Below are positions 19,045 through 33,421 of a stretch of 46,616 nt of DNA, in pieces. Source of the stretch: Prochlorococcus sp. AG-363-J23 (GTDB lineage: Bacteria > Cyanobacteriota > Cyanobacteriia > PCC-6307 > Cyanobiaceae); the NCBI GenBank assembly GCA_003280245.1, contig QCFN01000010.1, positions 1 to 46,616 of the forward strand, in the 5' to 3' direction. The notes under the pieces are model-generated. The model did no database searches. It saw nothing but the letters and a program-made list of their open reading frames with translations, and was not told the DNA's origin. Every line of letters begins with the position of its first letter. The first letter of the stretch is position 1. The position numbers and the translations under genes were made by a program.

Positions 19045-20490
19045 ATGTTGGAAGCAAGCTCTCATAAGCATCTGAAATTAATGCTGAAGAAGGCTTCTTT
19101 GCCTTGGCCTCATAGCCTTACTCTAAGCCGTTTAGTTGCTAGAAGTTTGCGAAGAAATGACCATACTTGGATTCAAATGGGTGTTGGGAGTCATGATTTG
19201 TGGTGGTTAGGTTTATTAATTCCAGTTTGTTTGGCAAATAATTCTTTAGTAATAGTTCTTTCTGAGCCTCAGAGAAGAAGGTTGGTAAAGAAAGAGCTTC
19301 CTATTCTTAATTCAGAGGGATTTGATTTGAATTATTCGGAAGGATGTACTCCTCCTCCAAATGATCATTTGTGGCTGTTGAGTTCTGAGGAGCTTATAAC
19401 TGCTCATCGTATGGGTTATTTAGAATCTAAGCAATTGATTATTTTAGAAGCAGAGAAACTAAGTCAGAAGCTTCGAAAAACGATGGCTATTGTAGTTGAA
19501 CCTAATGATTGGGAGGTTCTTTTTAAATCAGAATCTCCTTGCTCTAGAAACGCGATTAGTTTATATCAACGATTAACTAAAAGACTTTTTGGTCAATGCG
19601 CTAGTCCTGACGGGACATTTTTGATTGATGCTACGGAGATTTTTCTAGTAAAAAATTTACTTAATTCTCTAGATGATTATCCAGATCCATGGCGCAAGTT
19701 ATTAACTATTAATCCTACTTTATGGGCAAGCTGGGCAAAGCTTGATTATAAGAGTTTGCGATGGAATTGGCATTTTGAGCCTATTGAACCTTTTGAAAAT
19801 CTTGTAAACCTTTTTACTAAAAGACCAGTTATATTTCTTACCGAATCTGATGAGACTAGTTTTTTCGAATTTCAACTTAGAGAGATTAAATTATCCTTAG
19901 ATGTTGTTGTTAAGTTAAATAATCCGAATGTTCAAGAACCGATACCAATTTTTACCCCGAGGTCTCAACCCTTGCCAAATACAGAGCTTTTTTCAAAGCA
20001 TCTCTTAGATCAATGTCGGAGATTAATTATTGGTCTTTCTGGATTAACAATTGTTTTATTAGATGATTCTCAATTGCGAATATCTTTAACGGCTTCTTTA
20101 GCGGCAGAGTTTGGTAGAAGGGTTTCGCATGAAAAAATTTCGTCTGATATCAACGGAATTATTTGTTGTAGTTGGGATTGGTGGATCCATTCTCAGCATG
20201 AGTTGCCTTTGCCTCGGCAAGTGATTTTTGCCCTTCTTCCTTTGGCTAGTTTGGAATTACCTCTTACTGCCGCCCGAGTTGATGCTATGAAGCGTAAGGG
20301 TCGTGATTGGTTTCGTGAGTTTCTTTTGCCAGAAGCTCTTACGTTTATTCCTCTTGCCGTGGCTCCGATTAGAAAGAGTGGAGGGAGGTTGGCTATTCTT
20401 GATGGCCGTGTGCGTTCACGTAGTTGGGGTAAGCAAATTCTTCGTAGTCTTGAGCCATGGATTCCTTTATATCGTTTGCTACCGAATTAA
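19045..20490 (+). CDS. DinG/XPD-like helicase-related protein lacking a recognisable Walker A
   Basis: 481 residues from ATG 19045. The layout suggests a superfamily 2 helicase of DinG type. A segment at the Walker A position (IQMGVGSHD at 43-51) is followed by a strand that would hold motif Ia (LVIVLSEPQRRRLVKKEL) and a HLWLLSSEEL strand. A C-terminal region has LPEALTFIPLAVAP-x-x-x-SGGRLAILDGRVRSRSWG, recalling the helicase C2 motif Q-x-x-GR-x-I-R ... D-x-R. The GKT of Walker A and the DEAH box are not seen, and the terminal Q-x-x-GR-x-x-R is altered. Catalysis is therefore doubtful. The assignment is tentative. Confidence 0.5.
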   Translation: MLEASSHKHLKLMLKKASLPWPHSLTLSRLVARSLRRNDHTWIQMGVGSHDLWWLGLLIPVCLANNSLVIVLSEPQRRRLVKKELPILNSEGFDLNYSEGCTPPPNDHLWLLSSEELITAHRMGYLESKQLIILEAEKLSQKLRKTMAIVVEPNDWEVLFKSESPCSRNAISLYQRLTKRLFGQCASPDGTFLIDATEIFLVKNLLNSLDDYPDPWRKLLTINPTLWASWAKLDYKSLRWNWHFEPIEPFENLVNLFTKRPVIFLTESDETSFFEFQLREIKLSLDVVVKLNNPNVQEPIPIFTPRSQPLPNTELFSKHLLDQCRRLIIGLSGLTIVLLDDSQLRISLTASLAAEFGRRVSHEKISSDINGIICCSWDWWIHSQHELPLPRQVIFALLPLASLELPLTAARVDAMKRKGRDWFREFLLPEALTFIPLAVAPIRKSGGRLAILDGRVRSRSWGKQILRSLEPWIPLYRLLPN

Positions 20491-26357: not shown

Positions 26358-26751
26358 AGATCTACGGGAAGTTGGAGATAGTCTTGCAGTTCCTCAAAAT
26401 AATTCAAAGGGTAGGTAGTGGTGTAAGGTCTTTGTTTGGTTGATGATTCTGTGCCCGTCCGCTAGCCGGGCCTCCAGTTCATCAGTCTGATTTAGCGATT
26501 GCGCTAAATCTCTAGGCCTGTACCGTTCAATCAAGGGATTTTTCCCCTGAATTGAATTGTCGAGAAACTAACCCGACTTTTTTTGTTTGGGGCAAGTCTC
26601 AGCCAGCTGAATTTCTTGCTAGCTCACTTCGAAATACCCAGCGCTGGGTCTCTACATGGCTCCAGGTAGGTATACGAAAAGGCTTGTTTAACGATTTCAG
26701 CCATCAATCAACCTCTAAAAAGAGGTTTTCCCGCTGGCGTTTCTCTCTCTC
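26358..26751. promoter_or_regulatory. Divergent intergenic region and structured leader upstream of rplC
   Basis: 394 bases without a convincing gene, between ndhN (minus) and rplC (plus). It must hold both promoters. On the plus strand it contains four inverted repeats. One is a nested hairpin at 26441-26484 (outer TGATGA/TCATCA, inner GCCCG/CGGGC). A second is a perfect 9-bp stem with ATTG loop at 26489-26510. The others are a 14-base perfect palindrome ACCCAGCGCTGGGT at 26636-26649 and a terminator-like hairpin at 26710-26727. This pattern fits a ribosomal-protein mRNA leader. An open frame from TTG 26552 runs into rplC but lacks support. Confidence 0.55.
26710..26727 (+). terminator. Terminator/attenuator-like hairpin just before rplC
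   Basis: AACCTCT-AAAA-AGAGGTT forms a 7-bp stem with a 4-base loop, and its right arm runs into TTTTCC. It lies 24 bases before the rplC ATG. The position suggests attenuation or occlusion of the start of the ribosomal operon. This is inference; the stem is short and the T-run only four. Confidence 0.35.
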
Positions 26752-27408
26752 ATGTCTATAGGCATTCTCGGGAAGAAATTGGGCATGTCCCAGTTTTTTG
26801 ATGATCATGGAAGAGCAGTTCCGGTCACCTTGATCGAAGCTGGTCCATGTCGTATCACACAGCTTAAGAACTCTCAAACTGATGGTTATTCCGCGGTTCA
26901 GATTGGTTTTGGAGATACTCGCGAAAAGCTGTTAAACAAGCCTTCTAAAGGTCATTTATCAAAATCAGGTCAAGACTTCTTAAGGCATCTTCGTGAGTAT
27001 CGAGTAGATAGCGTTGGTGATTATGAATTAGGTGCTCCCATCACTGTTGAGTCATTTGAGGCGGGACAAAAGGTTGATGTCAGTGGAGCCACAATGGGTC
27101 GTGGTTTTGCTGGTTATCAAAAGCGCCATGGCTTTAGTCGTGGTCCTATGAGTCACGGCTCGAAAAATCATCGTCAGCCTGGATCTACTGGTGCAGGAAC
27201 AACTCCTGGGCGTATTTATCCAGGGAAACGGATGGCTGGTCGGTATGGTGGCAAGCAAATTACTACTAGAGGCCTCACGATTCTCAAGATTGACAGTGAT
27301 AGAAATCTGTTGGTTGTGAAAGGCTCTGTCCCTGGCAAACCCGGGTCTTTATTGAATATAAGGCCTGCAAATCGTGTGGGCGTTCAGCCTACGAAAGGAG
27401 GTAAGTAA
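26752..27408 (+). CDS. rplC: 50S ribosomal protein L3
   Basis: 218 residues. L3 is an early-assembling 23S rRNA-binding protein near the peptidyl-transferase centre. The start [12 protein letters not shown] and the internal [38 protein letters not shown] region are typical. It is the first gene of the cluster; rpsJ (S10), which leads the operon in many bacteria, is not upstream here, as expected in cyanobacteria. Its stop shares a base with the rplD start. Confidence 0.98.
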
Positions 27409-28043
27409 TGGCTAATTGCGTTGTTCGTGATTGGAAGGGTAATGAGGCTGGTGAAGCAACTCTTGATCTGAGAGTGGCTAAAGAGACCACAGCGCTTGAC
27501 TTGCTACATCGTGCGGTACTTCGACAGAACGCACATACTCGTCAAGGAACTGCCAGCACCCTGACTAGAGCTGAAGTTCGAGGAGGAGGACGTAAGCCCT
27601 ATAAGCAAAAGGGAACAGGTAGAGCCAGACAGGGATCTATTAGAACTCCTTTACGTCCTGGTGGTGGAATCATTTTTGGGCCGAAACCTCGTCATTACAA
27701 CCTTGCTATGAATCGCAAGGAAAGGCGCCTTGCTTTGAGAACAGCCTTAATGCGACGCATAGAAGATGTAGTTGTGGTGAAGGATTTTGGTGTCAGCCTT
27801 AAGACGCCTAAAACTAGTGAGATTGCAGATGCACTTGGTCGTTTAGGTATCTCATCTGGCACTAAGGTTTTGATCATTCTTTCTAACCCTTCTGAAGTGG
27901 TGAGTAAGTCTGTTCGAAACCTTGATAGGGTCAAATTGATTGCGGCAGATCAGCTCAATGTTTTCGATTTGCTTCACGCCCACTCCTTGGTGATAGGTGA
28001 GGAAGCTCTTACTAAGATTCAGGAGGTATACGGTAATGACTGA
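27408..28043 (+). CDS. rplD: 50S ribosomal protein L4
   Basis: 211 residues, with the long loop ([20 protein letters not shown] and [13 protein letters not shown]) that lines the exit tunnel. In E. coli L4 also represses its own operon by acting on the S10 leader; whether it does so here is unknown. It overlaps rplW by 8 bases. Confidence 0.98.
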
Positions 28044-32365: not shown

Positions 32366-32430
32366 ATCACTTTGCCTATTACTTTATTCTCGCCCTATTA
32401 ACCGTTCTTCTTCTTTCATTTCCATTAAGC

Positions 32431-32450
32431 CTTCTGACCAAGACCAGAAG
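32431..32450 (+). promoter_or_regulatory. Hairpin in the rplX-rplE spacer
   Basis: CTTCTG (32431-32436) and CAGAAG (32445-32450) form a 6-bp stem with an 8-base loop, 17 bases before the rplE ATG. In E. coli the repressor S8 binds mRNA at this same gene junction, so a translational operator is possible. The stem is short and I cannot show the S8-type internal loop. Confidence 0.3.
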
Positions 32451-32467
32451 CACTTTTCACCTAAGCC

Positions 32468-33019: not shown

Positions 33020-33421
33020 ATGGCTAACCACGATCCTATTTCTGACATGCTTACTCGCATTCGTAATGCTAGTGAGAAAAGACATCAAACCACAAGAGTC
33101 CCAGCCTCAAAGATGTCTCGCAGTATTGCAAAAGTTCTTCGTCAGGAAGGCTTTATTGCTGAAATAAGTGAAGACGGGGAGGGAATTCAAAAACAATTGA
33201 TCCTTGAGTTGAAATACAGCGGCAAGCATCGTCACCCAACGATTCGCTCTATGCAACGTGTTAGTAAGCCTGGATTAAGGATTTACAAGAACACAAGAGG
33301 ACTACCTAAGGTTTTGGGTGGATTGGGTGTAGCGATTATTTCAACCTCTAAGGGGGTAATGAGTGATCGCGATGCCCGTAAGCAAGGTGTTGGAGGAGAA
33401 GTCCTCTGCTATGTCTATTGA
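33020..33421 (+). CDS. rpsH: 30S ribosomal protein S8
   Basis: 133 residues beginning [17 protein letters not shown] and ending [33 protein letters not shown], both family hallmarks. S8 is a central 16S rRNA binder and the E. coli spc-operon repressor; regulation here is unproven. Confidence 0.98.

Follow-up and report, generated by a model that had tools for sequence, protein, structure and literature searches.

A conserved RNA leader before rplC in Prochlorococcus and its relatives carries a hairpin with the S8-binding core of 16S rRNA

In Prochlorococcus sp. AG-363-J23 and its relatives, rplC, the first gene of the fused S10-spc operon, is preceded by a conserved RNA leader some 315 nt long, whose P4 hairpin (26562-26600) bears the S8-binding core of 16S rRNA helix 21, GA(A/U)ACU...AAGUC. 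As the leader hairpin copies the spot of the rRNA that S8 binds, S8 probably regulates its own synthesis together with that of its neighbours, and we consider it probable that S8 is the ligand of the leader and that the leader functions in feedback on the fused operon. A leader in this place has been predicted previously, and what is new here is its likely ligand. Positions are those of the window, i.e. the whole stretch of 46,616 nt that was analysed (contig QCFN01000010.1), which comes from a partial genome (69% complete) in the family to which Prochlorococcus and marine Synechococcus belong; the features are collected in Table 1.

The 394-base gap that the original prediction had placed ahead of rplC is there as claimed (26358-26751), between the divergent genes ndhN and rplC (Pfam NdhN and Ribosomal_L3), and the ndhN-rplC region measures 358-409 nt in marine forms and at least 435 nt in Cyanobium-like forms. 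The hairpins noted in the gap belong to the leader, and the conserved object exceeds them, running from a -10-like box to the rplC start codon; its most informative part, 26560-26623, had been overlooked. Since the GTANNNT box stands before P1 in 81 of 97 regions, transcription likely starts near 26436.

The structure of the leader, consisting of P1, P2 and a three-way junction with the arms P3 and P4, was obtained from an alignment of 46 divergent relatives. From 112 loci, 14 were dropped as identical regions and 98 were left, of which 17 were omitted from a first alignment for length; four of the 98 were dropped as they did not have all anchors, 36 of the remaining 94 were too similar or contained N and 12 of the remaining 58 were longer forms, so that the 46 members are each less than 86% identical to one another within the aligned stretch. 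Helix cells are paired in 96.4% of cases (two core and six loop pairs having been added by hand), and pairing falls to 21-41% when partner columns are slid by one to three. Covariation in the stems, which the original prediction had proposed as a check, is strong: 173 cells are changed on both sides versus 47.6 in shuffles that ignore relatedness, and 22 of the 41 modelled pairs show changes on both sides. Because of this covariation, an RNA leader of a ribosomal protein operon is well supported. The 316-nt leader also folds at -102 kcal/mol compared to a shuffle mean of -83.3 (z -3.26), a value equalled by none of 100 shuffles.

A model of this alignment, which includes the window itself (R1), matches the window at 26434-26623, the one match in its own genome. 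In the class, 34 of 291 genomes are matched, 33 of them inside the family; the sole match outside (G499, E 0.0063) is in a stretch with no rplC and was taken as chance. With Rfam 15 the window gave three tRNAs only at the gathering score and one sub-threshold match, inside rplC, at E<=10, and five related loci gave one sub-threshold match and none at the cut-off.

Two of the original hairpins were recovered, the nested one at 26441-26484, closed by TGATGA/TCATCA, and the perfect 9-bp stem-loop at 26489-26497/26502-26510. The loop of P1 reads GCTAGC in 105 of 106 regions, and the inner part of this hairpin (26449-26477, CUGUGCCCGUCCGCUAGCCGGGCCUCCAG) is nearly invariant throughout the family, beyond the needs of pairing. 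The 14-base palindrome ACCCAGCGCTGGGT is likewise present at 26636-26649, but it is unconserved, and as it occurs in only one of the 106 related regions, the window's own, it is probably there by chance.

Table 1. Features of the rplC leader and the genes of its operon discussed in the text (positions in the window).
Feature	Position	Strand	Basis or remarks
-10-like box, TAAGGT	26424-26429	+	GTANNNT, at any of three neighbouring offsets ahead of the P1 loop, in 81/97 regions
P1, long hairpin with nearly invariant inner part; loop is site 1, GCTAGC (26461-26466)	26438-26487	+	Alignment, covariation
P2, 9-bp stem-loop	26489-26510	+	8/9 pairs changed on both sides among the 46 sequences
Three-way junction with arms P3 and P4	26515-26604	+	Closed by GGC (26515-26517) and GCC (26602-26604); alignment
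P3, junction arm	26522-26559	+	6/6 modelled pairs changed on both sides
P4, predicted S8-binding core	26562-26600	+	GAAACT (26564-26569) corresponds to 16S 639-644; AAGTC (26594-26598) to 595-599
Site 2, GCTAGC, a possible pairing partner of the P1 loop	26618-26623	+	Lost in high-light-like loci
14-base palindrome, unconserved	26636-26649	+	1/106 regions
3' domain: TCAGC (26697-26701), hairpin (26710-26727), site 3 GCTGGC (26733-26738)	26697-26738	+	Site 3 is 19 nt before the start codon
rplC (L3), first gene after the leader	26752-27408	+	Pfam Ribosomal_L3, E 5.6e-13
rplD (L4), second gene	27408-28043	+	Pfam Ribosomal_L4
rpsH (S8), the proposed regulator; shares its gene run with rplC	33020-33421	+	Pfam Ribosomal_S8, E 4.4e-49

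The likeness of P4 to helix 21 extends to every core nucleotide, as A595, A596, G597 and U598 opposite A640, N641, A642, C643 and U644 are all present at 26594-26597 and 26565-26569, with the 16S numbering checked on the 16S rRNA of E. coli. The available part of PMC4176348 describes base triples and an invariant A642 in S8 sites, and these fall on the core. The organism's own 16S rRNA has the same core (CAAGUC with GGAAACUG). In E. coli, the spc operator at rplE has the sequence GCGAAACUG...CAAGUCCC, with its strands ordered as in the leader, and the triple of U+11, A+80 and A+81 described in PMC4176348 falls on this operator sequence. Outside the family a single piece of the leader remains recognisable, GGAUACUG followed by a hairpin and then AAGUCC. 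The S8 protein encoded in the window shares 52% identity with E. coli S8 and retains RIYK and STSKG.

Searched for by sequence alone, the core is found ahead of rplC in 78 of 89 outgroup regions, in 95 of 98 family regions and in all eight high-light Prochlorococcus-like regions (antisense controls 2, 0 and 0; reversed controls 2, 1 and 0, in the same order), and starts about 185 nt upstream of the gene (family median). When the flanking pairs are also required, 63 of the 89 outgroup regions retain it, compared to two in antisense and a mean of 0.92 in first-order Markov shuffles. The 89 regions derive from 94 non-family genomes with an rplC match, without G433, G437, G465 and G486 and without locus L184 (G408), which has no recognised start; L250 duplicates L172. 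All five further members of the class (families f35 and f36) have the core, and it was found in none of 15 genomes from other classes of the phylum; in 13 of these 15 the frame just upstream has a C-terminus like that of S10. Within the whole window a strict scan found the core at 26565 and one weak match at 19853, and on reading the spacer before rplE (32366-32467), near the position of the E. coli site, no such core was seen. The strand order of the rRNA (AAGUC...GA(A/U)ACU) also occurs, in 16 of the 89 outgroup regions (among L157-L249), two of 98 family regions and none of the eight high-light-like ones, and the 16 exceed the antisense control of the other order.

The helices flanking the internal loop of the core covary in the 46 family sequences as well as in 49 outgroup sequences, whereas the minimum-energy fold of the window's own leader breaks P4. 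The outgroup alignment (A3) holds 49 of the 52 short hairpins listed, drawn from the 78 core matches; it is 95.5% paired and has 77 double-change cells versus 19.8 in shuffles, relatedness being uncorrected. The four core pairs never vary in these hairpins, and the six flanking pairs are each changed on both sides. A model built from them (R2) ranks P4 first in the window, yet only with an E of 0.35; genome-wide at E<=10 the site is not among the matches listed and three other places score higher. Across the class, 140 of 194 genomes are matched at E<=0.5, not all of them at rplC, and eight of 16 R2-match stretches (L291-L295, L298, L299 and L301) have no ribosomal protein gene found beside the match and were taken as chance or unexplained. 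In two of these, L291 and L301 (G421 and G565, family f22), an S8-like hairpin directly precedes or overlaps the beginning of a reading frame with no ribosomal protein match. R2 has no match in 16S rRNA or in the E. coli operator, and as it failed on E. coli it was rejected as a detector across phyla.

In E. coli the spc operon is known to be controlled by S8, and the same is presumed for Vibrio cholerae, but the phylogenetic study of S8 control has not advanced, according to the part of a review that was available (PMC10931766). The E. coli operator shares with P4 the core (GAAACUG...CAAGUC), its strand order and the presence of the S8 gene in the operon, but it is not matched by R2 and it lies across the start codon of the spc operon's third gene, whereas the cyanobacterial site is some 185 nt ahead of the gene that opens the fused operon and within a larger structured leader. 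With this distance and no start-codon overlap, the leader at most acts like a spc operator and is not classed as one. Helix 21 has the same core too, but with the strands exchanged in order, and the hairpin in the leader closes the other end of the helix. In the fused operon of Synechocystis autoregulation by S8 has been suggested, with a 91-nt spacer before rps8 as the target in the part of that paper available (PMC3925133); the regulator is thus the same as proposed here, but the site here is in the operon leader. A literature search, with most subscription papers outside it, brought up no publication recognised as describing an S8 site within the leader of cyanobacterial rplC. The portion of PMC7247131 that was available names no cyanobacterial lineage among its 20 leaders, the leader is not shown in the portions available of PMC2662882 and PMC2864571, and a term search of PMC11109978 did not find it.

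The leader itself seems to correspond to the 'rplCD operon leader' of marine picocyanobacteria, cluster 5 in Table 1 of a 2005 study (alignment length 345; PMC1242208), compared here by its description in the available part of that paper. The place before rplC-rplD is the same, but there it was listed, as a prediction only, by analogy with the E. coli S10 operon and taken as the counterpart of the S10 leader. The distinct cyanobacterial ribosomal protein leader of the original prediction therefore stands as an RNA leader, being supported by covariation, but it was already predicted in 2005 and its likely ligand site is not of a new kind. Following the 2005 listing, L4 would bind P1 or another part of the leader; L4 controls the S10 operon in E. 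coli (according to the same portion of PMC1242208), rplD is the second gene here, and the nearly invariant P1 offers a candidate site. The E. coli leader is likewise a ribosomal protein leader before S10-operon genes, but rpsJ comes first there and rplC here, and R1 has no match at E<=10 in an E. coli stretch with the S10 leader (L251). The original caution that the L4/S10 model is not simply transferable was well placed.

Genomes in which the operon is split bear on the same question. The core is missing within 650 nt of rplC in 11 of the 89 outgroup genomes. One of them (G407) has an R2 match 641 nt upstream. In seven others, five from family f13 and two from f33, the operon is split and the core is found ahead of the rpsS/rplV half, that is, before rplV in G412, G431, G444, G467 and G477 and before rpsS in G487 and G496. 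The half behind the core reaches rpsH in G412, G444 and G477, and was traced to rplN in G431 and G467 and to rpsQ in G487 and G496. Three of the 89 (G466, G482 and G495) remain with no site found. The core thus keeps company with the rpsS/rplV half of the operon, and because split operons carry it there, it goes with S8 and not with L3 or L4; in the window, rpsH is in the gene run of rplC. Together with the missing R1 match in E. coli, the position of the core away from rplC-rplD in these seven genomes led us to reject the L4/S10 leader, which we regard as improbable, although the split operons test the core and say nothing of P1, which is picked up by R1 in the family alone. In a further split operon (G457; L296 and L307) each half has a core ahead of it and rpsH lies downstream of the second one, which would suit an action of S8 on two transcripts.

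As the site in split operons precedes a run of genes (rpsS, rplV, rpsC, rplP and more) and not rpsH alone, another protein of the half from rpsS/rplV to the rpsF side could be what binds the conserved hairpin. We find this very improbable, as the core matches the S8 site of 16S rRNA and the spc mRNA position for position.

In the feedback by S8 that we propose, the RNA, which would start near 26436, folds into P1, P2 and the three-way junction, with P4 as the arm that, as sequence and covariation show, copies the S8-binding core. Whenever the synthesis of S8 outpaces that of 16S rRNA, free S8 would bind P4, as suggested by the match to two known S8 sites, and binding may stabilise the junction and reduce rplC translation and, through coupling, that of the downstream genes. 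In Synechocystis transcription starts 337 nt before rpl3 (PMC3925133, available part), and therefore a site at such a distance would lie in the RNA. How binding would reach the start codon is a guess; the link we favour, at less than even chances, is a long-range pairing that occupies site 3, for example with the GCUAGC loop of P1, which can pair with site 2 as well as with site 3. This pairing stays a guess because the invariant loop permits no covariation. Site 3 reads GCUGGC in 92, GCUAGC in 10 and otherwise in four of the 106 regions, and it can pair with an upstream 5-mer such as UCAGC in 91 of 98 regions (62.1 expected). A switch between the 5' strand of the S8 site and the last 22 nt was rejected (mean longest run 4.80 versus 4.48 in shuffled tails, 96 sequences), as was one between the outgroup 3' strand and the last 30 nt (4.45 versus 4.37, 78 sequences). 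Since these runs resemble those of shuffled tails, the GAGAAAC/GUUUCUC pairing that the fold of the window's leader contains is not conserved.

It would go further to see S8 as the master feedback regulator of the whole fused cyanobacterial S10-spc operon, replacing L4. The picocyanobacterial leader would then be a two-state RNA, in which the S8-bound junction releases or docks the P1 loop, this loop alternating between site 2 and site 3 and so shutting initiation at a start without a Shine-Dalgarno sequence, and high-light-like genomes would have kept just the pair of P1 loop and site 3, made perfect; we hold this to be rather unlikely. Picocyanobacterial rplC has an ATG start after a pyrimidine tract with no Shine-Dalgarno sequence (26739-26751 in the window), and many outgroup rplC genes have a GTG start after AAGGGAG-like purines. 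The high-light Prochlorococcus-like leaders (L140-L149 and L154-L156) are shorter, with 277-292 nt from ndhN to rplC, site 2 is lost in them and site 3 reads GCUAGC. R1 matches such leaders weakly, or not at all in three family members of the high-light-like genus g18, which are among the non-matching genomes listed (237 others not being listed).

The original prediction also described a terminator-like hairpin by the start codon, and early termination at a hairpin before rplC would make the leader a transcription attenuator. A 7-bp hairpin does exist (26710-26716/26721-26727), and at its place relatives have a hairpin of varying sequence preceding site 3, which beats shuffled segments in 40 of 46 sequences and has a T-rich tract nearby in 22 of 98 regions. 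However, it ends about 24 nt before the start codon, the T-rich tract is absent from the other 76 regions, and a consensus scan of the window stretch for intrinsic terminators (a GC-containing hairpin followed by a U tract) found none (0.9 expected), making attenuation highly improbable. Conservation at the level of DNA, as a divergent promoter shared by ndhN and rplC, which are neighbours in 111 of the 112 loci, has next to no chance given the compensatory changes and G-U pairs in the stems and the unconserved palindrome.

If S8 is indeed the ligand, the S8 site in most of the cyanobacteria examined would be one operator heading the fused operon and extending to genes that are under L4 control in E. 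coli; once the operon splits, the S8 operator would go with the S8 half. The leader of some of the most abundant phototrophs would then become directly testable, and it would provide a handle on how ribosomal proteins are matched to rRNA in cells with very small genomes.
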